In this document: piece by piece, positions 2,416-24,204 of the stretch | Layout: each line of letters starts with the position of its first letter | Position numbering within the stretch: position 1 is the stretch's first letter | Origin: a virus | Reading direction: 5' to 3' (one strand) | Virus record (IMG/VR): IMGVR_UViG_3300018424_000129 | Location: 1 to 31,080 of that record | Length of the DNA: 31,080 nt | The notes under the pieces: generated by a model | The model's input: only the letters and a program-made list of their open reading frames with translations | Databases searched by the model: none | What the model was told of the DNA's origin: nothing | Made by a program: the position numbers and the translations under genes

Positions 2416-5400
2416 ATGGGTCTTAGTCGCTTAGATAATTTTCTGAAAAATAGTAGAGGCGATATCCTTTACGTTGATCCTTCAAGTATTGACTCAACTG
2501 ATAGTATTGAGAACCAAGGTAACTCTCTCGTTAGACCATTTAAAACTATCCAGAGAGCACTGATTGAGGCAGCAAGATTCTCCTATCAGAAGGGACTCGA
2601 TAATGATAGATTTAGTAGAACAACTATTATCGTTTACCCTGGTGAGCACTTAATTGATAATAGACCTGGATGGATTCCAGTTCATGATGCCCCTATTACT
2701 GGTAATAATTGGTTGACTCGTAGTGGTACGAGTTCAAATGACCTTACCCAATTTACATTAGACACCAACTTTGATATTGACAGTTTTGAGAATGATCTTT
2801 ATAAGATGAACTCTGTCTACGGTGGTGTAATTATCCCCCGTGGTACATCTATTGTTGGTATGGACCTTCGTAAAACGAAGATTCGTCCCAAGTTTGTTCC
2901 TGATCCTGCAGACGATGCGATCAAACAGACGTGCTTATTCCGTGTAACTGGTACTTGTTACTTCTACCAGTTTACATTCTTTGATGCTGACCCAAATGCT
3001 AGGGTATTCAAAGATTATGGAACCACAGAGTACGTTCCTAACTTCTCTCACCATAAGGTAACTTGTTTTGAATATGCTGATGGCGTAAATCCAGTTGGAT
3101 TTAATGATAGTTTCTTAAACTATACAACTACAAGAACTGACCTTGACATTTACTATGAGAAGATTGGATTAGTATATGGTCCTTCTAGTGGAAGAGAAGT
3201 ACAACCAGACTATCCAGACTCTGCTCTTGATATTCAGACCAAGATTGATGAATATAGAATTGTTGGATCTAAGGGTCAGAATGTTGGTATCAGCAGCATT
3301 AAAGCTGGTGATGGATCTACCTCTAGCACAACAATTACAGTTGATCTTGTAGAATCTCTCTCTGGATTAGATGTAGATACACCAATTAGAATTGAAGGTA
3401 TTCCTACAGGTGGATATAACGGATCATTCGTAATTGATAGTGTTCAGAGTAGTACAAGAATTACATATGAGGTCTCTACACCTCCAGCAAATGCACTTCC
3501 TAGTATCGTATCTGGTGCTCCTACACTTAACATTGTTGTTGACTCTGTAACTTCAGCATCTCCATACATCTTTAACTGCTCACTCCGTTCTGTATACGGT
3601 ATGTGCGGTCTCCATGCTGATGGTAGCAAAGCAGATGGATTTAAATCCATGGTTGTTGCCCAGTTTACTGGTATTGGTCTGCAGAAGGATGACAGGGCAT
3701 TTGTTAAGTATAATGCAGTATCTGGTGTTTATGAAGACAGCACAGCAGTAAGTAATCTTCACACAAACACTTCTGCAATCTACAAACCAAATTATGAGAA
3801 CTTCCACATTAAGGCATCTAATGATGCCTTCTTGCAGTTAGTCTCTGTGTTCGCAATTGGATATGCAAATCACTTTGTTGCTGAGTCTGGTGGTGACCAC
3901 TCAATTACAAACTCTAACTCCAACTTTGGTGCAAAAGCGATTGTATGTAGTGGATTTAGAAATGATGCATTCCCCAGAGATGATACTGGATTCATCACTC
4001 ATATTCTACCACCTCAAGCAATTAGTAATGAAGAGGTAACTATTGAATTTGCTGCAATTGACGTTCAGCAAACCATTGACGTTGGTAATGACAATAGACT
4101 TTATATTTACAATGAAAGTAATGAAAATGTTCCACCAAAATCTGTTTTAGAGGGATATAGAATTGGTGCCAAGAAGGACGATGCCCTTAAAGTAATTATT
4201 AACGTTGGTGCTCAACCAGAGACCAAGACTGCTAAGATTATCATGCCCGAGACCCAGGGGCAAGGTATATACGAGACATCATCTAAGAAGATCTCTACTG
4301 TTGGTAGAACTGCTATTGGTATTAATAGTATTACCTCTAACATCTTTACTCTTACAGACTTCCACCTTTTTGAGAGTGGTGAATCTGTACGTATCTTGAG
4401 TGACGATGGCGAACTTCCAGATGGTCTCGATCACAATAGAGTTTACTATGCAATTACTGCTGGTATTAATACTGATCAGATTAAGTTAGCACAAACTCTT
4501 AATGACACCATTAGTGCTTCTTCTGTTATTGTAAACAGTAAGGGTGGTATTCTCCAGATTGAATCTAGGGTATCTGATAAAAAGTCTGGTGACATTGCAC
4601 ACCCAATCCAGTATGATACAACTCGTGGTCAGTGGTATATTACTGTTGCAGATAACAATGAAATTTATAACTCTATTGTTGGATTAGGAACTGCTGTACT
4701 TGGTGCTGCTACTCCTAAAACATTCTTCAGTAGAACTCCTGACAATAGATCTCTTGAAGATAGAATCTATAAGGTAAGATATGTTGTACCAAGAGATTCT
4801 ACTGTCTTAGGAAGACCTCCAAAAGATTCGTTTGTTCTGCAAGAATCTAGTCAGACTGTTGGATTTACTAATCAGGAAGTCGCTAAGTTTAAGAGTGTAA
4901 ACCCAGCAATTCTCTCAAACACCTCAGAATTAAGAAATCCAAGACTTATTTCTGGCGCTGTATGGGATGGAATTGTTGGTATTGCTACCATCAAAACAGA
5001 AACCCCTCACGAGTTGTCTGTTGGATCGAAGGTACAACTGTTTAACATCGTATCTTCTGCTAACACAACTGGACTTGGATATACTGGATTTAATGGTGTA
5101 TTTGAAGTTACTGGAAGACCAGATAGAAAGTCATTTACTGTTGGTTTAACAACTAACCCAGGTTCTTTTGACAACAATATAAACCTTAGAACAACAGAAC
5201 TTCCTAGATTTGAAAGAAAAGAATTTAATAATACATTATTTGTTTACAGAAAAGAGGAAGTTCAGGAATATATTCCAAACGCAAAGGATGGTGTTTACCA
5301 CTTAACTTTAATTGACTCTTCTTCAAAACCTGCTGTAACTCCATTCCAGGATCTTAAGTTTAGTCAACCACTTAAAAATCTCTATCCACAACTTGATAGA

Positions 5401-8301: not shown

Positions 8302-11300
8302 GTGATCAACATCTACGTTGACACCCTTAAAGGTTCCACCAACTCCTTCAACGTCGGGGAGACCCACTTCACTTGGGAGCACCGCCACCGTGGTCGTGAC
8401 TACGGTAAAGCGAAGCAGGTTCTTACTCAGTTGGATTCCAAGTACGTTCGTTGTGCTTGGTGGGAGAACGTGTCTACTCGTGATGACAAGGATCATCACC
8501 ATGACACCATCATCCATGAATGGTTGATGACTCTTCCTGGTGTCAAGAAGATTGGTCAGGAGACTTTTGAGTTTGATCTCAAGTTCTATACCATTGAGAT
8601 CCTTGTCCAGATGATGGAGGAGAAGTTCTTCTCTGGTAAGCAGAAGGAGTACAGTCAGTTCAAACCACGTCCTTATCAACAGCAATTCCTTGAGAAGATT
8701 GCCTCCGCATGGGACGTTAGTAATGAGTTTTTGCTGTTCGCTAAGTGCCGTGCAGGTAAGTCTGCAATGGTCCTAAAGCACATCGTAGATAGTGGTTATA
8801 AGGTATCCCTGGTTTGCTCCCGTCAGAGGTCCCCTGAGGGGTCTTGGAAGGCGGATTCTAACGAGTTCTTCCCTACTGTCAAATACATCTCTGTCCAGGA
8901 TCCTGGTTGGGAGACCTATCTTGAGTATTGGAAGGAGCGTGATGTCAATGTAGTTCTTTGGGGCACCGTCCAGAGTTTTATCAAGCGTCTGGATAAGATC
9001 AGCAACGTTGACTTCATTGCTTTTGATGAAGCACACATCGGTGGCACTGCGGACCAGTTCGTTCAACTCCGCAATGCAATTGACACTCGCATCTGCTACA
9101 TCTCTGGCACTGCACACAAACTCTGCTGGATGTTCCCCGATGAGCGCCAAAAGTTTGTCTATACCTATTTTGATGAGCAACTGGATGTTCAACGCGACGT
9201 GTTCAAGCGTCCCAAGATGAACGTTGCTTTTGCTAAGTATCAGACTTCTGCCTATCAGGAGATCTTTGGTGATGATCCTGATGCCATGAAGAACATCTTC
9301 ACTATGAAGGGTGATGAGTTCTTGCATGATTCCCTGGTGCGTGAGTTCATTCACAACTACTTTGGTCCTCAGCGTAATATCCGTATCGGTGATCGTCTGC
9401 TCAAGGGCACCTATCACATGATGGCACTGCCCAGTGTCAAAGCATGTCATGCATTCCAGAAGTTGGTTGAGTGCTATTACCCCGCATTGGTGGTTACTTC
9501 CGATGCTAAGAAGGATCAAGATGACATCAATCGCTTCCTAGATGAGCACGCAAAAGCACTGATCATCACTCAGTCTGCAAATGTTCTTGGCGTCACTGCT
9601 AAGAAGATCGATACCGTCATCAATTGCCGTGGTGGTGAGTCGATTGAGTTTTGGACTCAATTCGCATTCCGTGGTGGTTCTGGTGAACATGACTGGTGGG
9701 TGATTGATTTTGATGCCCAGCGATGCCTCCGTGCCATTCACACGGCATTCCAACTGGCATGTGACAACAATCCCACCCTGTCTCAATTCAGTGTTGTTGA
9801 CTTCACCAACATCCATGAATGGAATGATGGGTTCCAGGAACTGTCTAAAGAAGCATTTGAGGATGCTCTGGCAGCAGATGTTGAGAGCAGCATCTCAACT
9901 GTGACCAGCATTGTTGAGTCTTTGGATCTCAGTGGAGTTGGAGATTTTGTTTTTAATCTCAAGTCTTCTCTGACTACTGTGATGAAGGAGTCTCAGTTGA
10001 ATGACAATGGTGCCAACAACAAAAGTTGTGTCGTCATGGAGACTGAGCGTGTAAAAAAGTCTGATGACCTTGACACCCTGAAGAAGCAGACTGTCAAGGC
10101 ACTGCTTGAGTCCATTCCTCTGACCATGTTCTATATCATCCGTAGTGGTCAAAACGTATATTCCATTAAGGATGTGATTGGTTCTGAGATTTATCCTTCT
10201 GTCACTGGTGATAATGAGGGTATTCTCTCACAAGTAATCAATCTCAACCCCCACAGCATGGAGTTGTTGACCCGTCGTATTGGATTGGTATCTAACAGTA
10301 TCCAGAAGAGTATGAGGGAGTCTGTGTCTGAGACTATCAACGGTCTCTCGGTCTCCTCTGCTATTCAGCAATCCATTCCTACATCTCTCTTTGATATTAT
10401 GATCAATGATTGTAAGGACATGTCCCGAACCTACATGTTTGGTGACCCCAGTGGTTCTCACACTGCTCGTCTTCTTGAGCGTGGTCTTGATCCCAGCAAT
10501 CTCACCGTGTGGGAGAGTTGCGATAGTCACCGCAATCGTGTAAAATATGTGGATACTAGTGTCAAAGTGGTCGATTCCCATCCCAACATGAAGTTCACTG
10601 CCATTCTCGCCAACCCCCCATACAACGACCCCACTAAGAAGGCGCGGAACAACAAACTATGGACCAAGATTGTTGAGCAGCATCTTGAGTTGCTTGCTCC
10701 TGGTGGAGATATGTGTGAGGTGACTCCTGCATCTGTGCTTGGTAACACTGGTAAGGGTAAGAAGTTCCTCCAACTCTTCTCTACGGTTTATAATCTCAAA
10801 CTCATTGACTATACTGCAGATGATTACTTCACTGAAGGTGTTGCTATCTGCCGTTGGCACCTTGTGAATGAACCTTATCAGGGCAAGACTGTTGTCATCA
10901 CTCACGATGGTTCTTTTACTTGGGATTTGCGTGATGGTCTGCCTCTGGTTGGAGATGCTGCACTTAAGCATTCTATTCTCAATAAGATTGCCAACTCAAA
11001 GCATCCTCGTATTCCTCTGAAGATGGGTCAGGCGATTGCTACTGAGGACTATACTCCCAATGGCAAGTATGAGATCTATAAGTCTGCAGATAAAGTGGAG
11101 CGTACTGATGTTGTTCCTACCACTGGTGATGTTTTGAAGTTTATTGTTCCCTTCTCCTCCACCTACAAGAAGAGGTTTATCTCTAATGGATATGTTGGTA
11201 TGCTTAATTGCTGGTGCCCTATTACTTCGCAAGAAGAAGGGAATCGTCTTAGTGCGATCTTTGATAATCCGACTATCAAGTTTTTTGTGGACAATTATAA

Positions 11301-11433
11301 AAAGACTGCAGGATTTACTCCTGCTATTAAAAATGCGGAAGTACCTGACATCACGAACTATCAGGATCTATCTAACCAATTTGGTTTTACCAGCGACGAG
11401 GTAGAATATCTGGAGCGTTACAATGCCATCTAA
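8302..11433 (+). CDS. SF2 helicase and N6-adenine DNA methyltransferase fusion, 1043 aa
   Basis: The helicase half comes first: a Q-tip-like RPYQQQFLEKI (123-133), Walker A CRAGKS (149-154), DEAH (242-245), SGTAH (268-272), and a motif VI-like FAFRGGSGEHDWW (454-466). After a linker of about 200 residues comes a methyltransferase: motif I FGDPSGSHTARLL (713-725) and motif IV NPPY (771-774), characteristic of N6-adenine enzymes. The last 150 or so residues resemble the C-terminal DNA-recognition part of Eco57I-like enzymes. This order recalls single-chain type ISP or type III-like restriction systems. No clear nuclease is seen; an FDLK at 91-94 is only a weak PD-(D/E)XK candidate. GTG is the only supported start, since a stop lies in frame at 8272. 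G+C looks higher than in the flanking oxygenase genes (one sampled line 50% against 32%). Confidence 0.85.
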   Translation: MINIYVDTLKGSTNSFNVGETHFTWEHRHRGRDYGKAKQVLTQLDSKYVRCAWWENVSTRDDKDHHHDTIIHEWLMTLPGVKKIGQETFEFDLKFYTIEILVQMMEEKFFSGKQKEYSQFKPRPYQQQFLEKIASAWDVSNEFLLFAKCRAGKSAMVLKHIVDSGYKVSLVCSRQRSPEGSWKADSNEFFPTVKYISVQDPGWETYLEYWKERDVNVVLWGTVQSFIKRLDKISNVDFIAFDEAHIGGTADQFVQLRNAIDTRICYISGTAHKLCWMFPDERQKFVYTYFDEQLDVQRDVFKRPKMNVAFAKYQTSAYQEIFGDDPDAMKNIFTMKGDEFLHDSLVREFIHNYFGPQRNIRIGDRLLKGTYHMMALPSVKACHAFQKLVECYYPALVVTSDAKKDQDDINRFLDEHAKALIITQSANVLGVTAKKIDTVINCRGGESIEFWTQFAFRGGSGEHDWWVIDFDAQRCLRAIHTAFQLACDNNPTLSQFSVVDFTNIHEWNDGFQELSKEAFEDALAADVESSISTVTSIVESLDLSGVGDFVFNLKSSLTTVMKESQLNDNGANNKSCVVMETERVKKSDDLDTLKKQTVKALLESIPLTMFYIIRSGQNVYSIKDVIGSEIYPSVTGDNEGILSQVINLNPHSMELLTRRIGLVSNSIQKSMRESVSETINGLSVSSAIQQSIPTSLFDIMINDCKDMSRTYMFGDPSGSHTARLLERGLDPSNLTVWESCDSHRNRVKYVDTSVKVVDSHPNMKFTAILANPPYNDPTKKARNNKLWTKIVEQHLELLAPGGDMCEVTPASVLGNTGKGKKFLQLFSTVYNLKLIDYTADDYFTEGVAICRWHLVNEPYQGKTVVITHDGSFTWDLRDGLPLVGDAALKHSILNKIANSKHPRIPLKMGQAIATEDYTPNGKYEIYKSADKVERTDVVPTTGDVLKFIVPFSSTYKKRFISNGYVGMLNCWCPITSQEEGNRLSAIFDNPTIKFFVDNYKKTAGFTPAIKNAEVPDITNYQDLSNQFGFTSDEVEYLERYNAI

Positions 11434-14195: not shown

Positions 14196-14358
14196 ACTAA
14201 AGCATCAACGTCTCCAGGCATGGTTGCGTGAGCACAAGTGTGACGATATTGAGTATCTTGGTAATAAACAAGGTGAACATTGGTATCGTGTTGGAGAATA
14301 CGAGATAACTGCTGATCAGTTTGAAGACATTGAATTTGTTGGATATGTCGATGATTGA
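14176..14358 (+). CDS. hypothetical protein, 60 aa
   Basis: No family recognised. It starts MKISQTELKHQRLQAWLREH and ends EFVGYVDD. The ATG at 14176 is chosen over the ATG at 14170 because the GAGG at 14163-14166 is 9 bases from the former and only 3 from the latter. Its GYVDD end overlaps the MIEE start of the next oxygenase by 8 bases, a junction repeated at 18421. Confidence 0.68.
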   Translation: MKISQTELKHQRLQAWLREHKCDDIEYLGNKQGEHWYRVGEYEITADQFEDIEFVGYVDD

Positions 14359-14845
14359 AGAATTTTTTGTATCTGAAAAGATAGTTGCATATTGCAAGTC
14401 TTTACTTAAACTTGCACTAACATCCCCTGAAATCTTTAAAGATAAAGTGGATAGTAGTTTAAGTCCGAATTGCTTTGCGACTACAAATCTGCTACAATTT
14501 CCACATGCATCTATCTTTTATAACTATATTGATGCGTTGAGAATAAAATGTGAAGAATTAATTAATATCAACTTAGAGTATACTTATTTGCACCTAGTAG
14601 ATTACTCTAATGGTGGAACAATGAGTGAGCACCAGCACGATCATAATGAAGATTATAGTTTTATCCTATATCTTAATACTTGTGAGGACGGTGCTACAGT
14701 TTTAACATTAAGAGAACCTTATAAAGTGCTACCTGTTACAAATAAGGTGCTATTATTCTCCTCGTACATCTCCCATATGTCAGAGTATTCTGATACCAAG
14801 AAGGTATTGGTGGGTGGACTTAAAGTAAAGCAAAAGGAGTCCTGA
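14351..14845 (+). CDS. 2OG-Fe(II) oxygenase-like protein, 164 aa
   Basis: SEHQHDHNEDYSFILYLN (H94, H96, D97, H98) followed by FSSYISHMS (H142) and KKVLVGGL fits the iron-binding core of a 2OG oxygenase. The cluster allows several iron-ligand readings; aligned with the other oxygenases here, the pair before the hydrophobic strand reads H-x-H (H94/H96) or H96-x-H98. No clear Arg for 2-oxoglutarate is seen; K150/K151 sit at that place. The ATG at 14351 is preferred to a longer start inside the previous gene. The next gene follows directly with an AAGGAGT ribosome site. Substrate unknown. Confidence 0.68.
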   Translation: MIEEFFVSEKIVAYCKSLLKLALTSPEIFKDKVDSSLSPNCFATTNLLQFPHASIFYNYIDALRIKCEELININLEYTYLHLVDYSNGGTMSEHQHDHNEDYSFILYLNTCEDGATVLTLREPYKVLPVTNKVLLFSSYISHMSEYSDTKKVLVGGLKVKQKES

Positions 14846-15028
14846 ATGGATTGCGCCAAACAAGAAAAGCGTCGTGATGCACTGGGTTTGTTTTATGAGA
14901 GTGTTCTCAAACCAGATCATGAACTGCGCCAGTGTGCTCACAATCAAAAATGCTATCATGAATTGATGGAGTGGCGTAGCGAAATTATAGAATATTTAGA
15001 TCGTAGACGTAATGAAGAGTTTAACTGA
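14846..15028 (+). CDS. hypothetical protein, 60 aa
   Basis: No family recognised. It is highly charged and helical, with a basic end EYLDRRRNEEFN and three Cys (C3, C30 and C36). A strong ribosome site AAGGAGT (14834-14840) lies inside the end of the previous gene, and the stop overlaps the next start by 17 bases. Confidence 0.68.
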   Translation: MDCAKQEKRRDALGLFYESVLKPDHELRQCAHNQKCYHELMEWRSEIIEYLDRRRNEEFN

Positions 15029-15557
15029 ACATTTTGTTAAAGATTGGGTAGTTCCCTTTTATCAATCTAAGATCATTAATTGGGAAGGTAAAAGAGAAAA
15101 ACTCCTCCAAATTTATGAGAAGTTTAGTAAACCACTCATGGAAGAGGGAGAACAGTTTACTGATTTTAATATGGGAACAACCCGATATGATAATTTGATT
15201 CAAAATGTTTTGTTTGATGATTTAAGATTGGGAGTTAAGGAGATGGGATTCGATAAGATTCCCACCATCCAGAATTCTTGGTTCCAAGTATATAACTTGG
15301 CACACTCCCATGCGGTACATAATCACGGAATGGGTGCTTTAAGTGTGGTTTGCTACATTAAATATGATCCAAAGTATCATAGACCTACAACATTTATTGC
15401 CCCCTTCCACAGTTTGGATGATGGTAATGTAATGGAATATGAACCGAGTGGTATTGAAGAGGGATCTATAGTAATATTTCCATCTTCTATTGCACATTAT
15501 GTTCCTACTAATCAATCTACGTCTGAGAGAATGGTCCTTGCATGTAATGTAAACTAA
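15012..15557 (+). CDS. 2OG-Fe(II) oxygenase-like protein, 181 aa
   Basis: AHSHAVHNHGMGALSVVCYI gives H103-x-H105, and GSIVIFPSSIAHYV gives H162; R173 (SERMVLACN) can bind 2-oxoglutarate. The overall form resembles the phage oxygenase family in which H-x-H-P and S-G-V-x-Y follow each other. The IVIFPS-x-x-x-H strand is shared with the protein at 567. It sits one base before the first radical SAM gene, which suggests a joint step. Substrate unknown. Confidence 0.78.
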   Translation: MKSLTEHFVKDWVVPFYQSKIINWEGKREKLLQIYEKFSKPLMEEGEQFTDFNMGTTRYDNLIQNVLFDDLRLGVKEMGFDKIPTIQNSWFQVYNLAHSHAVHNHGMGALSVVCYIKYDPKYHRPTTFIAPFHSLDDGNVMEYEPSGIEEGSIVIFPSSIAHYVPTNQSTSERMVLACNVN

Positions 15558-15558
15558 T

Positions 15559-16377
15559 ATGTTAAAAGTACCACACGAAATTCAATTACACTTAACTCAC
15601 TCATGTAATCTTACATGTGAGGGTTGTACCCATTACATGAATCAAGGACACTCTGGTTCTGTTAGTATTGAAGAGGCGGATGAGTGGTTCACTGCTTGGA
15701 GTAGACGGATTGCTCCAGAGAGAGTCACTCTCATGGGTGGAGAACCGTCTCTGCATAAAGACCTGACAAAGTTTGTGTATTTGACTAGAAGGAAGTGGAG
15801 ATATTCTCAAATTGATATTGTATCTAATGGATTCTTTTTGGACAGGCATCCAGACCTTTGGAAGGCACTGATTGATACCAACACAACTCTTGGTGTGTCT
15901 GTTCACTCTGATGGGGATCCAGAGTATAGGAAGAAGTTTGAACCAATCTACGCATTGATGAAGAACTGGATTGCTAAAGGTGCTCCAGTAGAAATGAGAC
16001 CATCTATTATCCACTGGATTCGACAGTATAAGGGATTTGGTGATAAGATGGAACCATATGAAGATAATGATCCCAAAAGTAGTTGGAAGATTTGTGTATC
16101 TAAAATGTGTGTGCAACTCCATGAGGGTAAACTCTGGAAGTGTCCTGCATTGGCGTATCTTCCCATGCAAGCAGACAAATATAATCTATCGGATAAATGG
16201 AATCCATATCTAAAGTATACTCCTCTTAGTCATGATTGTAGTAAAGAAGAATTGAAAGATTTCTTCACTCGTAGAGAAGAGTCTTTTTGCAAAATGTGTC
16301 CTGCTAAAGAGGACTATTTTACCCCAGAGAATCCTTTGCTACCAGTAAGTTATTGGAAGAAGAAATATGACACTTAA
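15559..16377 (+). CDS. radical SAM protein with Cys-rich C-terminus (paralog 1), 272 aa
   Basis: The radical SAM cluster motif CNLTCEGC (C16, C20, C23) is followed by LMGGEPSLHKDL (GGEP 60-63) for SAM binding. Additional Cys groups lie toward the end: KICVSKMCVQLHEGKLWKCP and SFCKMCPAK, reminiscent of SPASM/twitch domains that hold extra Fe-S clusters. Radical SAM enzymes generate a 5'-deoxyadenosyl radical for C-H chemistry. A closely similar copy lies at 19431. The gene overlaps the following oxygenase by 11 bases. The host must supply Fe-S assembly. The reaction is unknown. Confidence 0.88.
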   Translation: MLKVPHEIQLHLTHSCNLTCEGCTHYMNQGHSGSVSIEEADEWFTAWSRRIAPERVTLMGGEPSLHKDLTKFVYLTRRKWRYSQIDIVSNGFFLDRHPDLWKALIDTNTTLGVSVHSDGDPEYRKKFEPIYALMKNWIAKGAPVEMRPSIIHWIRQYKGFGDKMEPYEDNDPKSSWKICVSKMCVQLHEGKLWKCPALAYLPMQADKYNLSDKWNPYLKYTPLSHDCSKEELKDFFTRREESFCKMCPAKEDYFTPENPLLPVSYWKKKYDT

Positions 16378-17128
16378 TTTATCTAAAGAACAAGAAGATA
16401 TTCTTAATCAACTTGCTGATAAGGCAGGAGTATCTGCTAAAAGTAGACTTGATGAAATAATTAAGGATGAGTATTATAGATCATTTAGAGTAGTTGGACC
16501 CACTGGTTGTGAAGATCCCTATTGGAATGACGATAGGGATTTTGAATACTTTGATTTTTGTGGTAACACAATCTATAGAGCATATAATATGCTCACCAGA
16601 TATCATATGGACAATCTTCTTGATGAGATTGATGACGAATTGCGGACATGTGAAGATAAGTGGGATAGATCTGTAGAGGCAACCAATCAAATATCCAAAA
16701 GAAAACTAACACATAAGACAAGTTGGTATACTTTTTTTAGGATGGTCAAGAAACACCTGTATAATTATGCAGAGGTAACAAAGAATCCCAGAGTCAAAGA
16801 ATATAAGGTTCAGTCATACTGGGCAAAGAGGATGAAGGGAACTAATCCAGATGACTATAAGAATGAACTATACATAAACTATAGGAATAGTCACAGTCAT
16901 GAGAATTTTGATTTGGGGATGATTTATTATCTCAACAATCCATCACGGATCTATGGAACTTTGATTGAGAATGGTGATAGAGAGATAATTATTCCAGGAG
17001 ATGAGAATTCTTTGTTGATTCATCACTCACATATTAACCATCAACCAGTGATGCCACCACCGACGATAGCGAATAAGTATTATCGCTGTGTAATAGTTGT
17101 TGACTTTATGCACCCCTCAAAAACATGA
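16367..17128 (+). CDS. 2OG-Fe(II) oxygenase-like protein, 253 aa
   Basis: The last 90 residues carry the oxygenase core: NSHSHENFDLGMIYYLNNP (H176-x-H178), then ENSLLIHHSHINHQP (distal His H222 or H225), then R240 in KYYRCVIVVDF. The first 170 residues are charged and helical (EQEDILNQLADKAG) with no family I recognise; this is longer than the other oxygenases here. It overlaps the radical SAM gene before it and the small gene after it (ATGA). Iron-motif variant H-x-H again, instead of H-x-D. Confidence 0.7.
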   Translation: MTLNLSKEQEDILNQLADKAGVSAKSRLDEIIKDEYYRSFRVVGPTGCEDPYWNDDRDFEYFDFCGNTIYRAYNMLTRYHMDNLLDEIDDELRTCEDKWDRSVEATNQISKRKLTHKTSWYTFFRMVKKHLYNYAEVTKNPRVKEYKVQSYWAKRMKGTNPDDYKNELYINYRNSHSHENFDLGMIYYLNNPSRIYGTLIENGDREIIIPGDENSLLIHHSHINHQPVMPPPTIANKYYRCVIVVDFMHPSKT

Positions 17129-17358
17129 ACGCTACCGACAGGATTAAATACTTTAGTATAGTCAGTAAGATAAACAAGGGTAATTTTGATGACATCACTC
17201 AGGATGAATACCTTTGGTTGCAGAAGAATCCAAATGTCCTGAAAAAAATGAACCAAGTCAGGAAAAAAAGAGAGATTCTAAACTCTAGCAAAGGAACAAT
17301 GAACACAATTGAAGAAATACTTTTTATCTTAGACTTGTCAGATAGGATGTATCGGTGA
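17125..17358 (+). CDS. hypothetical protein, 77 aa
   Basis: No family recognised. The protein is basic and helical (KKMNQVRKKREILNSSK) and could bind nucleic acid. ATGA overlap with the preceding oxygenase supports translation. An extended -10 promoter for the HNH gene overlaps its 3' end and stop. Confidence 0.65.
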   Translation: MNATDRIKYFSIVSKINKGNFDDITQDEYLWLQKNPNVLKKMNQVRKKREILNSSKGTMNTIEEILFILDLSDRMYR

Positions 17359-17364
17359 TATAAT
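17335..17364 (+). promoter_or_regulatory. sigma70-like promoter for the HNH gene
   Basis: TTGTCA (17335-17340), an 18-base spacer, and TATAAT (17359-17364) preceded by TGA, an extended -10. This is among the best host-type promoters in the window. It overlaps the first possible ATG of the HNH gene, so a transcript starting near 17371 would use the ATG at 17387. Confidence 0.6.
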
Positions 17365-17863
17365 GTCCCAACACCTAGTAACTTGTATGGACCACTTAAA
17401 GATCGCACCATATCAAACGGTTCTAGTTCTCAATTCAAGTTATGAACCAATTAACTTCACTAATTGGAAGAGAGCGGTAATCTTAGTTCTCAAAGAGAAG
17501 GTACAAGTGTTATCATCCAGAGTAGTTAGATTGTTGAGTTATATCAGAGTCCCAGTGAATAGACTTGCTAAGAGTCGTCCATCAAGATCGATGATATACA
17601 AGAGAGACAGAAACTCTTGCCAATACTGTGGCGCAACAAGTAGGTTGACTATTGATCATGTCATACCTAGAAGTAAAGGTGGTGATGACAGTTGGGAAAA
17701 TTTGGTTGTAGCATGTTCAAGATGTAATACCCTTAAGAGTGATAAATTACTTGAACAAACTAAATTGAAGCTCAGAAAGCAACCAAGAGCACCATGGAGT
17801 TCAGTTGCGTTTGATTTGGAAGAATGCAATGTTCCTGAATGGCGTGAATACAGTTACTCATAG
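17363..17863 (+). CDS. HNH endonuclease, 166 aa
   Basis: PYQTVLVLNSSYEPINFTNW is the form seen in a cyanobacterial and cyanophage HNH family. The catalytic part has two Cys pairs, CQYC (86-89) and CSRC (118-121), for zinc, with DH (98-99) and N113 as the HNH residues. It would nick or cut DNA. It may be a free-standing homing-like gene placed within the oxygenase cassette. The start may be ATG 17387 (MDHLKIAPYQ) instead of 17363, as suggested by the overlapping promoter; neither has a clear ribosome site. Followed 10 bases later by an oxygenase with its own strong ribosome site. Confidence 0.88.
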   Translation: MSQHLVTCMDHLKIAPYQTVLVLNSSYEPINFTNWKRAVILVLKEKVQVLSSRVVRLLSYIRVPVNRLAKSRPSRSMIYKRDRNSCQYCGATSRLTIDHVIPRSKGGDDSWENLVVACSRCNTLKSDKLLEQTKLKLRKQPRAPWSSVAFDLEECNVPEWREYSYS

Positions 17864-17873
17864 GAGTTTATAA

Positions 17874-18428
17874 ATGTTTTTTCGTAAGTTGAATAAACAA
17901 TTTGTTGTTGATCATTACAGCAAAAAAGGTAAAAAGATTGAGTATGGATTGGATACTCCCATTGGATTCATGGGTATCAAGTATTCTTATGTACATACCA
18001 CAAAAGATGAAGATCTCTTACAAGTAATTCCAGAAGATCATAGGGATAAATGCACCCTATCTCTGATGGAACTTAACTATCAAATTCCTCCACATACTGA
18101 TAGTGATATAGAAGCAATTGTCAACTTCTATATTAAAACAGATCGGTGCGTCACTCAGTTTTACTATCCACCAGCGGCGGATGTAGATACTCAAAAGATT
18201 GCTAATCAAACAGACGGTGCAATCTTCCATGAGGGGCATCTTAAAAAGGCAGTTAGATTTATGGCACAACCTGGAGATGCTTATCTCTTGGATGTATCTA
18301 AACCACATTCTGTTATTCCGACAGAACCTGGACTGACAGATCGTAAATGTATCTGTTTGCAGATTCTTTATAAGTCTTTTGATGAAGCAGTTGAGATGTT
18401 GAAAAAAACGGGGTATATCGATGATTGA
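17874..18428 (+). CDS. 2OG-Fe(II) oxygenase, 184 aa
   Basis: QIPPHTDSDIEAIVNFYIKT gives H74-x-D76 and GDAYLLDVSKPHSVIP gives H145; R157 (DRKCICLQI) is the likely 2-oxoglutarate ligand. This is a complete standard facial triad, unlike the H-x-H group nearby. AGGAG at 17863-17867, starting within the previous stop, is a good ribosome site for ATG 17874. Its GYIDD end overlaps the MIEI start of the next gene, as in the 14176/14351 pair. Target unknown. Confidence 0.8.
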   Translation: MFFRKLNKQFVVDHYSKKGKKIEYGLDTPIGFMGIKYSYVHTTKDEDLLQVIPEDHRDKCTLSLMELNYQIPPHTDSDIEAIVNFYIKTDRCVTQFYYPPAADVDTQKIANQTDGAIFHEGHLKKAVRFMAQPGDAYLLDVSKPHSVIPTEPGLTDRKCICLQILYKSFDEAVEMLKKTGYIDD

Positions 18429-18945
18429 GATTATTGACAATTACCTTCCTCAACGTGAATATGACACTATCCGTGCATATTTTGAGGGAGATATGGATGG
18501 TGGAGCAACTCATAATTCATGTACTTGGATGTATTATCCTGGTATTACTTTGGATAATGATGGGCATTTCCAATTTGTTCAGTTAATATTTTCGCAGTAT
18601 ACAATTCTAAGCGATTCATTTAATTTATTGTCTCCTATTATTCAGAAGGAGAGGATGTGTTCTATTGCTAGAATTAAAGCAAATTGTGTTATTAAAACAC
18701 CTGAGATAATTGAGTTTACCCAAGGATTCCACACGGATTTTAATAGTGATTTGATGACAGGCATTTACTACATCAATAGTAATGATGGATATACTTTGTT
18801 TGAAGATGGGACAAAGTGTGAGAGCGTTGCTAATAGATTTTGTAGATTTCCTGTTAGAACAAAACATACTGGAACAACGTGTACCAATACTAATCGTAGA
18901 TTGGTTCTTAACTTTAACTATTCTATCTATGATACAGATAATTGA
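18421..18945 (+). CDS. 2OG-Fe(II) oxygenase-like protein (tandem copy A), 174 aa
   Basis: QGFHTDFNSDLMTGIYYINS gives H104-x-D106, and RTKHTGTTC gives H149, followed by R159/R160 in RRLVLNF. The order HxD, 'TLFEDGTKC', distal His, Arg is that of prolyl-4-hydroxylase-like phage oxygenases. It is a clear paralog of the next gene, sharing IIDNYL, SIARIKANC and NDGYTLFEDGTKC. Overlaps: 8 bases with the previous gene and 17 with the next. Confidence 0.78.
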   Translation: MIEIIDNYLPQREYDTIRAYFEGDMDGGATHNSCTWMYYPGITLDNDGHFQFVQLIFSQYTILSDSFNLLSPIIQKERMCSIARIKANCVIKTPEIIEFTQGFHTDFNSDLMTGIYYINSNDGYTLFEDGTKCESVANRFCRFPVRTKHTGTTCTNTNRRLVLNFNYSIYDTDN

Positions 18946-19447
18946 TAACTACCTGGATCCAGATGATTTTAATAGAATCCGTCTTTATTTTGAAGGTAAA
19001 TTAGATGATGGAACAATAGAAAATTCTTGCAATTGGCATTTTGTTCCAGGGTGTGCTCAGATTGGGGATGGGCACTATCATTTTTCATCATACATTCATT
19101 CAATGTTTGAAGTTCGCATTCCAAGAGCGTTTGAATTACTAAAACCATTGATTGAGAGGACAAATATGTCTTCTATTGCTAGAATCAAAGCGAATTGTAT
19201 GATAAGAACTGAAAAATTAAAGGTAATGATGGATGGATTCCATGATGACTATCCTCACACATTAACAACAGGAATCTATTATATTAATACTAATGATGGA
19301 TACACTTTGTTTGAGGATGGAACAAAGTGTGATAGTGTTGCTAATAGATTTTGTATATTCCCGTGTGGGATAAAACATACTGGCACAACATGTACAACAA
19401 CAGACCGTAGACTGTTGATTAATTTTAATTATGCAAGTTACGACTAA
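18929..19447 (+). CDS. 2OG-Fe(II) oxygenase-like protein (tandem copy B), 172 aa
   Basis: DGFHDDYPHTLTTGIYYINT gives H105-x-D107, KHTGTTC gives H150, and RRLLINF gives R160/R161. ATG 18929 (MIQIIDNYLDPDD) is chosen over longer in-frame starts because it aligns with the start of copy A. Long DNA identities with copy A, around 19290-19350, indicate a duplication. It overlaps both neighbours by 17 bases. The middle has diverged most, so the two may act on different substrates. Confidence 0.78.
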   Translation: MIQIIDNYLDPDDFNRIRLYFEGKLDDGTIENSCNWHFVPGCAQIGDGHYHFSSYIHSMFEVRIPRAFELLKPLIERTNMSSIARIKANCMIRTEKLKVMMDGFHDDYPHTLTTGIYYINTNDGYTLFEDGTKCDSVANRFCIFPCGIKHTGTTCTTTDRRLLINFNYASYD

Positions 19448-20282
19448 ACAGATAGAGTTGCACGTTACCCACGCATGTAATTTTACATGTGAGGGTTGTT
19501 CGCATTATTCTAATCATGGACATTCTGGTAACTTATCTTTAGAAACTGCTAGAGAGTGGCTATATACATGGGGTCAACGTATTGTCCCTGAAACATTTGT
19601 TATACTTGGTGGAGAACCTACTTTAAATAAAGATCTAACCGATATAGTTTATTTGGTTAGAATGATATATCCTGATCCGTCTGTACAAATTGATTTAGTA
19701 TCTAACGCTAGTTTTTTACACAATCATCCGAGACTACCAAAAGCATTAATAGCAACCCAGACAAATTTAGCAATATCTATTCACAGCACCAAACACAAGG
19801 ATTATGTAAGACGATTTAAAAAAGGTTATCAACTTGCCAAATCATGGAGACATGAACTTGGGGTGCATGTGGAATTCTGGGACTTTACTAACACTCACTG
19901 GACACCTCAATACAAGGGATTTGGTAGTGGGATGATGCCTTATAAGGATGGTAATCCTCGTCAGAGTTGGGAGAAGTGTGTGTCAAAACATGCTTTACAA
20001 ATACACGAAGGGAAGTTATGGAAGTGTCCATCACTTGCATATCTTCCAATGCAAGCAAACAAATACAATTTAAGTCAGGATTGGGATTATTATCTAAAAT
20101 ATGAACCATTGACCTCAGATTGTAGTGATCAAGAACTTGAAGAGTTCCTGAATAGACAGGATGAGTCCTTTTGCTCTATGTGTCCAGCAAATAAAGTAGA
20201 ACCATATATCAAACAAGACCCAACTTTACCCGTTAGTTATTGGGAGAAGCACTATGATAACCTGGGGGATTTCAGCGAATAG
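19431..20282 (+). CDS. radical SAM protein with Cys-rich C-terminus (paralog 2), 283 aa
   Basis: CNFTCEGC (C16, C20, C23), LGGEPTLNKDL, and the late Cys groups KCVSKHALQIHEGKLWKCP and SFCSMCPANK repeat the plan of the protein at 15559. The second group differs in one Cys (SKHAL against SKMCV), so the number of cluster ligands may differ. The 'HEGKLWKCPALAYLPMQA' region is nearly shared. It overlaps the carbamoyltransferase gene by 29 bases. Probably a separate substrate or step from paralog 1. Confidence 0.87.
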   Translation: MQVTTKQIELHVTHACNFTCEGCSHYSNHGHSGNLSLETAREWLYTWGQRIVPETFVILGGEPTLNKDLTDIVYLVRMIYPDPSVQIDLVSNASFLHNHPRLPKALIATQTNLAISIHSTKHKDYVRRFKKGYQLAKSWRHELGVHVEFWDFTNTHWTPQYKGFGSGMMPYKDGNPRQSWEKCVSKHALQIHEGKLWKCPSLAYLPMQANKYNLSQDWDYYLKYEPLTSDCSDQELEEFLNRQDESFCSMCPANKVEPYIKQDPTLPVSYWEKHYDNLGDFSE

Positions 20283-21678
20283 TCACAATGCTGCTCTAGC
20301 AGTATTCTCTAATAACAATCTTGTTTTTGCTAGTGAGAGCGAACGTTTCAGTGGTTTAAAAAATGATCCAGACATATGTGAGGGACTGTTGTCTCATGCA
20401 ATGATGTATGGAGAACCTGGTTTAATTTGTTGGTATGAGGATCCATTTAAAAAAAGACTACGGCAAGTGATGGCGGGTCAGGGACCATTTGTTTATAACT
20501 TTACAAAGTATTTTAACTGTAGGCACAAATTTATAAACCATCACTACAGTCATGCATGTGCTGGTTACTATACAAGTAAGTTTAGAAGGTCTGCAATTGT
20601 AGTAATAGATGCTATTGGTGAATTTAAAACTGCTAGTATTTGGGAAGCAAATGGTCCAAATCTTCGACTGAGATGGCAATTAAACTATCCTAACAGTATT
20701 GGATTGTGGTATTCTGCTATGACTCAGAGATGTGGTTTTAAACCAAATGAAGAAGAGTACATTCTTATGGCATTGTCTGCGTTTGGGGACAAAAATAAAC
20801 TAAAGAATGATATATTGTCCGAGTTGATCGACAGAGATTTTAACTGTAAGATGAACTTCCACAGGGGATGTTCTGACTGGAAACCAGAAGAATCAATTGA
20901 AGATATTGCTGCAGCAACACAAGAAGTTTATGAGATATTATTTAATAACATATTGAGATTGGCGAGTGAATTGGTTTCTACCAATAACCTAACTCTGGTT
21001 GGTGGATGTGCATTGAATTGCGTAGCAAATAGACATGCATATGATCATTTTAAAAATGTTTGGATTATCCCTGCTCCAGGAGATGCAGGGTCTGCTATTG
21101 GTGCAGTCTTAGCACATAAAAAAGTAAAAGTTCCATTTACCCCTTATCTTGGATATAAAATTATTCAAAAAGCAAACAATATGTCAATTGTTGACCACTT
21201 AAAAGAACATAAGGTATGTGGTCTTGCAAGAGGTAGAGCAGAATTTGGTCCCAGAGCACTGGGTGCAAGAAGTTTGATTGCAGATCCAATGCAAAGAGGA
21301 ATTAAAGATAAAGTAAATGAGATAAAGAAGAGAGATCCTTTCAGACCATTCTCTCCCACAGTTCCAATAGAATATGCTGCAAAGTATTTTGATATGCATG
21401 ATGATTTGGTTGAGAGTCCATATATGCAACATGCTGTAAGATGTAAGACACCAGAATTATTTCCTGGTGTTGTACATGTAGATGGAACTAGTAGGGTTCA
21501 AACAGTTAAGAAGTCAGATGCTCCTAGATTGCATGATCTTCTTATGCGGTGGGGAAAGGTATCTGGTCATCCAGTTCTTCTCAATACAAGTTTAAACATC
21601 AAAGGAGAACCAATATTAAATGATGAGACCGACTGTGCAAGGTGGTCTAGAATGCATAACATACGAATATTCTCATGA
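20254..21678 (+). CDS. NodU/CmcH-type carbamoyltransferase, 474 aa
   Basis: The N-terminal half has ISANSHNAALAVF, INHHYSHACAGYY (H96, H97, H100, the HHxxHA metal motif shared with Kae1/TobZ) and VVIDAIGEF (D119). Later come LVGGCALNCVANRHAY and the C-terminal domain GRAEFGPRALGARSLIADP and HPVLLNTSLNIKGEPI. The family moves a carbamoyl group from carbamoyl phosphate, through carbamoyl-AMP, to a hydroxyl of a sugar or antibiotic. At 474 residues it is shorter than bacterial relatives of about 570-600, but all domains appear present. It follows radical SAM paralog 2 and overlaps the SGNH gene by ATGA. Confidence 0.9.
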   Translation: MITWGISANSHNAALAVFSNNNLVFASESERFSGLKNDPDICEGLLSHAMMYGEPGLICWYEDPFKKRLRQVMAGQGPFVYNFTKYFNCRHKFINHHYSHACAGYYTSKFRRSAIVVIDAIGEFKTASIWEANGPNLRLRWQLNYPNSIGLWYSAMTQRCGFKPNEEEYILMALSAFGDKNKLKNDILSELIDRDFNCKMNFHRGCSDWKPEESIEDIAAATQEVYEILFNNILRLASELVSTNNLTLVGGCALNCVANRHAYDHFKNVWIIPAPGDAGSAIGAVLAHKKVKVPFTPYLGYKIIQKANNMSIVDHLKEHKVCGLARGRAEFGPRALGARSLIADPMQRGIKDKVNEIKKRDPFRPFSPTVPIEYAAKYFDMHDDLVESPYMQHAVRCKTPELFPGVVHVDGTSRVQTVKKSDAPRLHDLLMRWGKVSGHPVLLNTSLNIKGEPILNDETDCARWSRMHNIRIFS

Positions 21679-22418
21679 AGTTCTTACCTATGTTTGACAG
21701 GGGGTGCGACGGTGGGTTGTGCGCCTTTTATGATAAGGATTCAAAGGAGGAATATGTAAATAATCTCAAGATAAAACCAAAGGATTGGAAGTATAGGAAG
21801 AAGATTGTATCCTATAAATTAAACTCTGAGTTCTATCGGACAGCAGAGTTTAATACAATACCATGGAGTGAATCTATTGTTATATTTGGATGCTCTAATG
21901 TATTTGGTGTTGGTGCAGCAATTGATGAGACACTATCAGCACAGGTTACAAAGATAACGGGTTTTCCTACAATTAATATGGGAGTACCTGGATCAAGTCC
22001 ACAATTTGCTTTGTATAACTCTGCGATATTGAAACAAGTTTACCCTAAACCAAGAGCAGTGGTATTTGCTTGGACAAGTGCAAACAGATGCACGTTGTTT
22101 AGATACCAACCACATACTAAAAAAGAATTCTCTATTGAGAACTGTGGTCCATGGACATCCGATAGTGGTGATCTTGGCAAAGCATGGACAAGATTTGATT
22201 CAAATATTGATGGGCATCTAAAAATGACTAGATTAGTTGCTCAACAGATGTGGAGTGATACTCAGTATTTGGATTTTACTTTATTTCAAGCAAATATGAA
22301 GTACATCCCAGATTGTATTACTTTTAAGATAGTTGATCATGGTAGAGATTGTACTCACCCAGGAGAAGAGACAAATAACATCATAGCAAAACACATTGCA
22401 TCAAAACTAACTCTGTGA
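21675..22418 (+). CDS. SGNH/GDSL-hydrolase-like protein, 247 aa
   Basis: IVIFGCSNVFGVG (S74 as nucleophile, in place of GDS), NMGVPGSSPQF, FAWTSANR (N137) and DCTHPG (D225, H228, the D-x-x-H pair) are the four SGNH blocks in order. No signal peptide is seen, so it acts inside the cell or on the virion. Such enzymes remove or transfer acetyl groups on glycans and lipids. It closes the cassette beginning at 15012. Confidence 0.82.
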   Translation: MKFLPMFDRGCDGGLCAFYDKDSKEEYVNNLKIKPKDWKYRKKIVSYKLNSEFYRTAEFNTIPWSESIVIFGCSNVFGVGAAIDETLSAQVTKITGFPTINMGVPGSSPQFALYNSAILKQVYPKPRAVVFAWTSANRCTLFRYQPHTKKEFSIENCGPWTSDSGDLGKAWTRFDSNIDGHLKMTRLVAQQMWSDTQYLDFTLFQANMKYIPDCITFKIVDHGRDCTHPGEETNNIIAKHIASKLTL

Positions 22419-23327: not shown

Positions 23328-23545
23328 AACAAGATCCGTATTGGTTTTTTAAAAAGTGGGGTATTGAAGATAATTCTGTATCACAAAGAGTTGTGGAACT
23401 TGAAGAAAGAGTAAAATACCTTGAGTTGGAACGAATCAGTTTAATTAATGATTTGTACGAACTTGAGAACAGATTGCAGGCACAAATTGACAATCATCAT
23501 CCACCACAGTATAATCTTGACAAATACTCCTTAGGAGAAAAATGA
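23324..23545 (+). CDS. small coiled-coil protein, 73 aa
   Basis: Residues about 20-55 (VVELEERVKYLELERISLIN and following) show a leucine-rich heptad pattern, a likely coiled coil. It begins MKQDPYWFFKKWG. ATGA overlap at both ends, the latter with talC. Function unknown; oligomerisation is inferred. Confidence 0.72.
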   Translation: MKQDPYWFFKKWGIEDNSVSQRVVELEERVKYLELERISLINDLYELENRLQAQIDNHHPPQYNLDKYSLGEK

Positions 23546-24204
23546 AAATCTTTCTTGATACAGCAGACACGGATGAAGTCCGTAAGTATTTCCAAACGGG
23601 ACTTGTTGATGGTGTAACGACAAACCCATCTCTTATTCGTAAGAGTGGTCGTGATCCTGAGGATGTATATCAGGAGATGTTTGATATTGGTGTCCGTGAC
23701 ATCAGCATGGAAGTGGTTGGTGAGGTTGGAACAATGTATGATGAAGGACTTCGCCTTGCTGAGAAGTTTGGTGAGTCTGCAACTATTAAATTGCCGTGTA
23801 CTCCTGATGGTTTGCAAGTTTGTCGTCATCTATCCGTAGGGAAAAATATTAAGACAAACGTTACTTTGGTGTTCTCTGTTGCACAGGCATGTATGGCAAT
23901 GAAGGCAGGTGCAACTTACATCTCTCCTTTTGTAGGTCGTTGCAATGACAATTCTTTTAGTGGTGTTGAGCTTGTACGTGCTATTGCTACTACTCGTACA
24001 GTTCATAGCATGAAGACACAGGTGCTTGCAGCATCTCTTCGTGATGCACATCATGTATCACGTTGCTTTATGTACGGTGCTGATGTTGTAACTATGCCTG
24101 GTAAGGTATTTGATGCAATGTATGATAGTGTTCTGACTCGTGAAGGACTTGCTATCTTCCAGCGTGATTATGAAGCATCTTTGGAGGCATTAAACAATGT
24201 ATGA
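23542..24204 (+). CDS. talC: transaldolase, TalC type
   Basis: A 220-residue class I aldolase barrel of the short fructose-6-phosphate aldolase/TalC family: FLDTAD (D6), VTTNPSLI (N28), and ATIKLPCTP with Schiff-base lysine K83, then TYISPFVGR and GADVVTMPG. The enzyme moves a three-carbon unit between sedoheptulose-7-P and glyceraldehyde-3-P. In cyanophages this gene is a well-known auxiliary metabolic gene that supports the pentose phosphate pathway during infection. An AGGAG ribosome site lies at 23532-23536. gnd lies about 6.5 kb downstream and serves the same pathway. Confidence 0.95.
   Translation: MKIFLDTADTDEVRKYFQTGLVDGVTTNPSLIRKSGRDPEDVYQEMFDIGVRDISMEVVGEVGTMYDEGLRLAEKFGESATIKLPCTPDGLQVCRHLSVGKNIKTNVTLVFSVAQACMAMKAGATYISPFVGRCNDNSFSGVELVRAIATTRTVHSMKTQVLAASLRDAHHVSRCFMYGADVVTMPGKVFDAMYDSVLTREGLAIFQRDYEASLEALNNV

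Follow-up and report, generated by a model that had tools for sequence, protein, structure and literature searches.

A mostly overlapping cassette of SpeY-like radical SAM, carbamoyltransferase, SGNH-like and oxygenase-like genes in a T4-like cyanophage: a possible sugar-tailoring pathway

Introduction

SpeY and BtrN are twitch radical S-adenosylmethionine (SAM) dehydrogenases of the spectinomycin and butirosin pathways. Here we describe a cassette of eleven plus-strand genes (15012–22418) in a 31,080-base virus record (IMG/VR record IMGVR_UViG_3300018424_000129, positions 1 to 31,080, the whole of which we refer to as the window), a fragment of a T4-like cyanophage. The cassette joins two predicted SpeY-like radical SAM proteins (R1 and R2) to a carbamoyltransferase (CT), an SGNH-like protein, five 2-oxoglutarate (2OG) oxygenase-like proteins (oxA to oxE), an HNH endonuclease and a small open-reading frame (ORF). 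Lipopolysaccharide (LPS) clusters, carbamoyltransferases and 2OG oxygenases of cyanophages have already been published (PMC3037559, PMC10436341; all publications cited here are represented by extracts); these phages carry numerous 2OG oxygenases as well as some carbamoyltransferases, with roles that are only proposed (PMC3037559). Radical SAM and glycosyltransferase genes were prevalent in the Tasman Sea phage samples of a marine survey (PMC7150976), and a Baltic survey mentions radical SAM domains (PMC9301287). In the crocagin pathway CgnC is a predicted dioxygenase, CgnD a hydrolase and CgnI a carbamoyltransferase (PMC10070186), and 5-carbamoyloxymethylcytosine is the product of a carbamoyltransferase encoded on a phage-like contig (PMC8670742). 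A literature search, mostly of titles alone, gave no description of this cassette among the titles listed, which is not proof of absence. The first-pass annotation of this DNA had held that a phage-encoded pathway of this kind would be new: this is only partly right, since LPS clusters and carbamoyltransferases of cyanophages are already in print (PMC3037559), whilst the joining of a SpeY-like radical SAM pair to CT, SGNH-like and oxygenase genes looks new.

Cassette layout and conservation

All of the ORFs are present in the 15012–22418 span and 7 of the 10 junctions overlap (4–29 bases), the other three being gaps of 1, 4 and 10 bases; the first-pass annotation had described the genes as nearly all overlapping, and its count of eleven is correct, although its title and reasoning omitted the HNH gene and small ORF needed to reach it. 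For these junctions oxE is taken to start at 18929, an ATG inside the listed ORF, which itself begins at 18782; the searches used the sequence from 18932 onward, one codon short. The genes, with ox0 directly upstream, are as follows.

14321–14845, + strand: ox0, 2OG-oxygenase-like, directly upstream of the cassette (phrog_274, phrog_81)
15012–15557, + strand: oxA, 2OG-Fe(II) oxygenase (PF13759)
15559–16377, + strand: R1, predicted twitch-type radical SAM protein, SpeY-like (PF04055, fold model)
16367–17128, + strand: oxB, probable 2OG oxygenase, weak assignment (phrog_81)
17125–17358, + strand: small ORF, no family assigned (none below E 0.05)
17363–17863, + strand: HNH endonuclease, probable passenger (PF01844)
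17874–18428, + strand: oxC, 2OG-oxygenase-like (HxD...H...R motif only)
18421–18945, + strand: oxD, 2OG-oxygenase-like (phrog_274 and motif)
18929–19447, + strand: oxE, 2OG-oxygenase-like, paralogue of oxD (phrog_274 and motif)
19431–20282, + strand: R2, second SpeY-like radical SAM protein (PF04055, cluster motifs)
20254–21678, + strand: CT, NodU/TobZ-type O-carbamoyltransferase, 474 aa (PF16861, PF02543)
21675–22418, + strand: SGNH-like hydrolase or acyltransferase (predicted SGNH fold, motifs)

The eleven-gene arrangement is not chance, because dN/dS is low and the gene order is conserved in many relatives. Between the window and a related locus (L002), dN/dS was 0.02–0.21 for the cassette genes and ox0, except for oxE (0.25, on very few changes), and comparisons with loci L086 and L005 gave values up to 0.29; dS is near saturation for many genes, which makes these values rough. 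The oxD and oxE genes (window 18421–19447 vs. L002 12863–13886) exhibited dS of only 0.04 and 0.01. Because this block is near-identical to L002 while its direct neighbours have diverged (dS 1.46 and 0.66), the pattern of substitutions identifies it as a recent exchange or recombination tract. The talC gene is also low (0.16). Promoter-like sites (40 vs. 46.3 ± 8.4 in shuffles) and terminator-like sites (7 vs. 5.2 ± 2.1) gave no evidence of an operon, and an Rfam scan found one tRNA.

Predicted enzymes

R1 and R2 both exceed the Pfam radical SAM cut-off (PF04055), and the CxxxCxxC SAM-cluster motif is kept in 44/44 R1 and 43/43 R2 matches, sets which may share paralogues; for loci without R1, the R1 set may contain their R2 instead. 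The auxiliary-cluster residues are C179, G190, C195, C244 and C247 in R1 and the cysteines C183, C199, C248 and C251 in R2, where we take the twitch motif to be C-X9-15-G-X4-C ... C-X2-C; the four cysteines are kept in all 44 R1 matches and in 42 of 43 R2 matches (L026 lacks the last two). An AlphaFold2 model of R1, the one radical SAM protein modelled, was built from an alignment (A9) of 11 R1 and 5 R2 rows and reached a predicted local distance difference test score (pLDDT) of 84. Its best structural match was SpeY (Z 21.0, root-mean-square deviation 2.9, 243 residues aligned), in agreement with Foldseek, followed by BtrN (Z 13.8) tied with SuiB (13.7), whilst maturases of ribosomally synthesised and post-translationally modified peptides (RiPPs) scored Z 10–14. 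Motifs and model together identify R1 and R2 as one radical SAM family of predicted SpeY-like twitch type. In a tree of 43 rows they form separate, well-supported groups (support 95/98 and 100/99), so that by this phylogeny the split between them predates the sampled cassettes; branches are long and the deeper order is uncertain. In a plasmid collection the only radical SAM match was partial and MoaA-like.

CT exceeds the cut-offs of both carbamoyltransferase domains (PF16861, E 1.6e-48; PF02543, E 8.9e-39) and by sequence resembles the novobiocin, geldanamycin and tobramycin enzymes: against solved proteins its profile matched decarbamoylnovobiocin carbamoyltransferase (E 8e-79), with GdmN, one further carbamoyltransferase and TobZ also among the top relatives. 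HHxxH is kept in 31/32 homologues (L026 has an ambiguous residue), Asp277 and GPRALGxR in 32/32, these being conserved features expected of NodU/TobZ carbamoyltransferases. CT shares 23% identity with the tested carbamoyltransferase of 5-hydroxymethylcytosine (5hmC) DNA, and of the three sites singled out in the paper on that enzyme, two differ between them. Where CT has G337 and R339 (G and R in 32/32 homologues), which should equal sites G421 and R423 in what we take to be that paper's numbering, the tested enzyme carries C and T; the third site, W408, aligns to CT L324, with no Trp either. In a marine phage (L022, 10528–12774) CT is present as two ORFs with the domain order swapped, directly followed by a radical SAM gene.

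The SGNH-like protein matched no family over cut-off, and its AlphaFold2 model (pLDDT 89) exhibited an SGNH fold with CgnD as best match (Z 14.2 over 199 residues; other SGNH enzymes ≤12.6). The block I Ser, block II Gly and block V DxxH are present, and S74, G103, D225 and H228 are kept in 38/38 distinct homologues. At the expected block III position, after the strand at 128–133, there is no invariant Asn; R138 is invariant there, as is N115 further upstream in the chain. Doubt over this Asn is why we use the label SGNH-like. Several relatives have, a few genes further downstream, a second and more distant SGNH-like paralogue (L003, 14645–15292; L004, 18588–19235; L005, 18280–18951).

Amongst the oxygenase-like proteins, oxA exceeds the PF13759 cut-off (E 4.8e-11) and keeps HxH, H162 and R173 in 28/28 distinct homologues (coverage at least 85%). 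Both oxD (E 7.5e-40) and oxE (E 1.4e-36) match phrog_274; oxD carries HxD...H...R and matches PF13640 below cut-off (E 0.049), whilst in oxE the residues HxD, H149 and R160 (numbered from 18932) are kept in 27/27 homologues, and 8 of 11 members of the phrog_274 family alignment matched PF13640 (E ≤ 0.1). For oxB we found phrog_81 (E 1.1e-3) and HxH, H219, H225 and R240 in 15/15 homologues (coverage at least 85%), with no match in a comparison with oxA (probability 1.3%). No Pfam family at E ≤ 1 was found in 9/9 oxC members, nor a 2OG oxygenase in a PDB profile search, nor an hhalign match to oxE/oxD or oxA; only the HxD...H...R pattern (HxD 28/31, H145 29/31, R157 29/31 homologues) marks oxC as a 2OG candidate, and in L005 and L119 metal ligands are lost. 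PDB searches with oxE/oxD and oxB returned nothing significant. The HxD/E...H facial triad is seen in oxE homologues, and its HxD part in most oxC homologues, whilst oxA and oxB carry HxH instead, although oxA exceeds its family cut-off. Directly upstream, ox0 matches phrog_274 (E 1.9e-11), phrog_81 (E 6e-8) and, below cut-off, PF13640 (E 1e-3). The phrog_274 family is labelled 'DNA endonuclease V', which looks wrong for oxD and oxE, with their HxD...H...R motif and weak 2OG-oxygenase matches. In the enzyme list of the first-pass annotation, the radical SAM proteins, CT and oxA hold by family and the SGNH-like protein by fold; the sequence evidence for 2OG oxygenases is strong for oxA, fair for oxD and oxE (family and motif), weak for oxB and motif-only for oxC.

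The HNH gene exceeds the PF01844 cut-off (E 1.8e-16), and it is also similar to IscB in the HNH part of the latter, at a score under the family cut-off; it is probably a passenger, because no match was found in L008–L016 although the neighbouring genes are kept. Pfam and PHROG scans found no family below E 0.05 for the small ORF. Three loci (L100, 12437–14732; L101, 11935–14789; L110, 5778–8527) carry additional genes after oxB and ahead of a later gene of the cassette; judged by eye, these resemble RNA ligase of T4 type, polynucleotide kinase and phosphatase.

Joint occurrence in related phages

Amongst 50,697 annotated phage records, R1 matched 2, the SGNH-like protein 0 and CT 142 (all <60% identity), and R2 matched 8 at a looser limit, six of these being partial matches in Campylobacter phages. 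A scan of viral contigs with R1 gave 16 loci, and a radical SAM profile scan gave 114 relatives; the analysis used the best 80, which represent 73 distinct loci. Seventy-five loci were compared, 60 of them chosen for encoding a radical SAM protein (L002–L017, L026, L082–L124); CT was found in 44 of these 60 and SGNH in 54, whilst the radical SAM counts of this comparison are left aside because R1 and R2 cross-match. One (L090) ends too early, five (L099–L103) carry neither CT nor SGNH in the available stretch, and the remaining 15 (L125–L139) lack the cassette order. In a different phage group (L126, 4400–17400) several radical SAM genes are packed with SGNH-like and oxygenase-like genes, as judged by eye.

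To avoid choosing loci by their radical SAM gene, we recounted from an anchor on the upstream helicase, which gave 37 loci, 31 of them with at least 9.9 kb downstream (L141, L149, L161, L167, L168 and L173 were dropped). A radical SAM gene is present in 30 of the 31 (R2 in 29, R1 in 21, both in 20), CT in 28, SGNH in 25, ox0 and oxB in all 31, HNH in 28, oxC and the small ORF in 24 each, oxA in 17 and oxD/E in 14. R2 lies on the minus strand at 45% in two of its 29 loci, and the oxB match in L165 reaches only 31–36% identity. L153 and L154 exhibit no SGNH in the available stretch, although it is present in L112 and L114, which come from the same contigs. Divergent loci repeatedly have CT and/or SGNH after R2. 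Scattered occurrence, which the first-pass annotation had taken as the observation that would speak against its reading, is thus not what these loci exhibit, although shared descent confounds the count.

Gene neighbourhoods of relatives

Cassette genes are present in two large related records, G001 (125.8 kb) and G003 (246.5 kb, without R1), and each of these records has a further radical SAM gene of the R1/R2 family within a sugar cluster. In G003 the further gene directly precedes a GDP-mannose 4,6-dehydratase and a short-chain dehydrogenase/reductase (SDR) resembling GDP-fucose synthase; in G001 it precedes a GDP-mannose 4,6-dehydratase/SDR pair with two oxB-like genes in between. A glycosyltransferase family 25 (GT25) gene follows in both clusters, and a GT6-family gene was confirmed in G001, with a GT4-like gene, below cut-off, in G003. 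In the Synechococcus phage isolate S-SCSM2R, an R1 homologue lies among GT25, GT7/GT2-family and DegT genes; the label 'inosamine amidinotransferase' in this phage was unconfirmed by Pfam, and we did not build an aminocyclitol idea on it. The CT of P-SSM2 adjoins genes whose annotations name a sugar kinase, a phosphoheptose isomerase and an epimerase. Amongst 72 further, more distant CT loci, some lie within 8 kb of cytidylyltransferase, 3-deoxy-D-arabino-heptulosonate 7-phosphate (DAHP)-synthase-family, epimerase or UDP-glucose-dehydrogenase genes (in clusters of 6–8 loci, one member each checked). SGNH was found near 6 of these 72 by a crude regular expression, and we claim no general link between CT and SGNH.

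A radical SAM scan of genome contigs gave 56 loci, of which L026–L040 match over most of the protein. L026, filed as a Rhodobacteraceae metagenome-assembled genome, carries the cassette with flanking phage genes and is probably a misbinned cyanophage contig. Bacterial radical SAM homologues adjoin a UGT-like gene and an RTX-repeat protein (L034), two GT2 and one enoyl-CoA hydratase-family protein (L038), a NodZ-like neighbour just under cut-off (L037), and PAP2 with one protein lacking a family match (L033). The RTX-repeat protein of L034 (56–8509) is 2817 aa long, and a related large ORF lies near the radical SAM gene in L035 and L037.

Elsewhere in the window, a tail-fibre gene (2416–8232) lies upstream of the cassette and a transaldolase is encoded at 23542–24204. 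We infer a cyanobacterial host because the right end of the window resembles cyanophage 6-phosphogluconate dehydrogenase genes (~78–82%, 30 best rows), together with the tail-fibre and transaldolase genes. A helicase-like and N6-methyltransferase-like fusion at 8302–11433 is matched by two separate pieces in L005, L007, L012 and L013, split near residue 585.

Discussion

On balance we favour, with moderate confidence, the cassette as a phage sugar-tailoring pathway whose product decorates a host surface polysaccharide or a virion glycan, because of the match of R1 to SpeY, the type of CT, the sugar genes near relatives, the joint occurrence of the genes and their low dN/dS. We infer the following reactions and their order, along with the substrate and a role in the biology of the phage. 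SpeY-like R1 and R2 would act on hydroxyl carbons in a sugar or sugar nucleotide by oxidation (or epimerisation), at least one of the 2OG oxygenases would hydroxylate the sugar or an attached group, CT would attach an O-carbamoyl group, and the SGNH-like protein would remove or move an ester group. The decorated glycan would be made with phage or host glycosyltransferases, its target being most likely the host surface polysaccharide during infection, which could block re-adsorption, or a virion glycan. The first-pass annotation had proposed sugar or natural-product tailoring: this is partly supported, the link to sugars by the SpeY match, the CT type and the genes that neighbour relatives, whereas the HNH gene is probably a passenger. 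The conserved unit ties 2OG oxygenase and carbamoyltransferase genes to SpeY-like radical SAM proteins and to a relative in a GDP-fucose cluster, which makes sugar tailoring a testable hypothesis; if right, a virus applies radical SAM chemistry and O-carbamoylation to a glycan.

Several observations weigh against this proposal. No glycosyltransferase or nucleotide-sugar gene was found in the cassette or in the 31 scanned ORFs of the window. Amongst 12 related records, which may be fragments, GT2 was present in 0 (control 14/14), GT25 in 2 (control 0/14) and the dehydratase family over cut-off in 5, strongly in only 2. Five of eight tested neighbours in S-SCSM2R had no Pfam match. In Mesorhizobium (L029) the neighbours are an amidase and a GNAT protein, with no glycosyltransferase among those checked, and clustering placed related amidase genes in L027, L028 and L031 and a related GNAT gene in L031. 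The co-occurrence itself is confounded by shared descent, several anchored loci being near-copies and not independent events, and one anchored locus (L165) carries CT but neither radical SAM gene. CT is absent where R2 and SGNH are kept (L008–L011, L096–L098, L104, L107, L109), and R1 is absent in other locus groups. At the 72 further CT loci the radical SAM profile matched in 7 and SGNH in 8 (hidden Markov model searches), and ~30 share another, unannotated neighbourhood.

A bolder form of the sugar-tailoring reading is that the product is a rare antibiotic-style sugar, in which two SpeY-type oxidations, hydroxylations and O-carbamoylation would act on a GDP-sugar-derived glycan coating the virion or re-masking the host; this is speculative and rather unlikely, but if true, aminoglycoside-type tailoring chemistry is employed by a virus.

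A rival explanation, which we consider unlikely, is a loose collection of auxiliary genes which share a region by descent and act on different substrates. CT, R1 or oxA are absent from whole locus groups, the near-identical oxD–oxE tract shared with L002 shows piecewise exchange, and most further CT loci lack a radical SAM or SGNH profile match in the available stretch. Against it stand the overlapping reading frames, the anchored counts (30/31 for R1 or R2, 29/31 for R2, 28/31 for CT and 25/31 for SGNH) and the repeated finding of CT and/or SGNH after R2 in divergent loci.

Peptide or protein modification also appears improbable. Here the oxygenases, CT and the SGNH-like protein would act on a crocagin-like ribosomal peptide or hydroxylate the upstream-encoded tail fibre, with the radical SAM proteins modifying side chains. 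The combination of enzymes in crocagin biosynthesis, the tail-fibre gene upstream and the RiPP maturases amongst the R1 matches fit this explanation, as does CgnD, the best fold match of the SGNH-like protein and itself a RiPP peptide hydrolase, which counts against the sugar-tailoring pathway. However, a gap of 7 Z units separates SpeY from SuiB, the highest-scoring of the RiPP maturases listed, the relatives sit among sugar genes, and neither a precursor peptide nor a protein for peptide recognition was identified, no search aimed at these having been made.

DNA or nucleotide hypermodification, in which CT would carbamoylate a hydroxymethylated base from an oxygenase or a hydroxymethylase, has a precedent in the 5-carbamoyloxymethylcytosine enzyme and company in the DNA methyltransferase-like genes of the window, but is very improbable: the thymidylate synthase/dCMP hydroxymethylase family was found in 0 of the 12 related records, which may be fragments (control positive in 9/14 genomes), the CT residue comparison disfavours it, and the methyltransferase matches are of N6/Eco57I type, whilst a Tet/JBP search carries no weight as its control matched nowhere.

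Compared with known systems, the cassette shares with the crocagin RiPP pathway an oxygenase, an SGNH-fold hydrolase and a carbamoyltransferase; the extract describing crocagin mentions no radical SAM protein, and that pathway employs a precursor (CgnA) and CgnB/CgnE. Cyanophage LPS clusters (P-SSM2 and S-SSM7) and the Nol-like carbamoyltransferases of cyanophages offer a second parallel, the T4-like P-SSM2 having a CT near sugar genes and tail fibres (PMC3037559). Neither P-SSM2 nor S-SSM7 is among the R1 or R2 matches, however, the cassette CT is distant from every matching phage record, and glycosyltransferase and sugar-nucleotide genes are absent from the cassette, being found elsewhere in 2 of the 12 related records. 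S-SCSM2R resembles the cassette in having an R1 homologue (42%) with 2OG-annotated and glycosyltransferase-family genes, and differs in its one radical SAM match, its CT relative ~40 kb away and the presence of glycosyltransferase families. CT has both domains (PF02543, PF16861), HHxxH and GPRALGxR in common with the NodU/TobZ/novobiocin-type enzymes, and is shorter, at 474 aa vs. 576–702 aa in solved enzymes. With SpeY and BtrN, R1 and R2 share the CxxxCxxC cluster and the four auxiliary-cluster cysteines, and the R1 model shares the overall fold, yet identity over the structural alignments is 18–20%, and here the proteins are phage-encoded and present in two copies.

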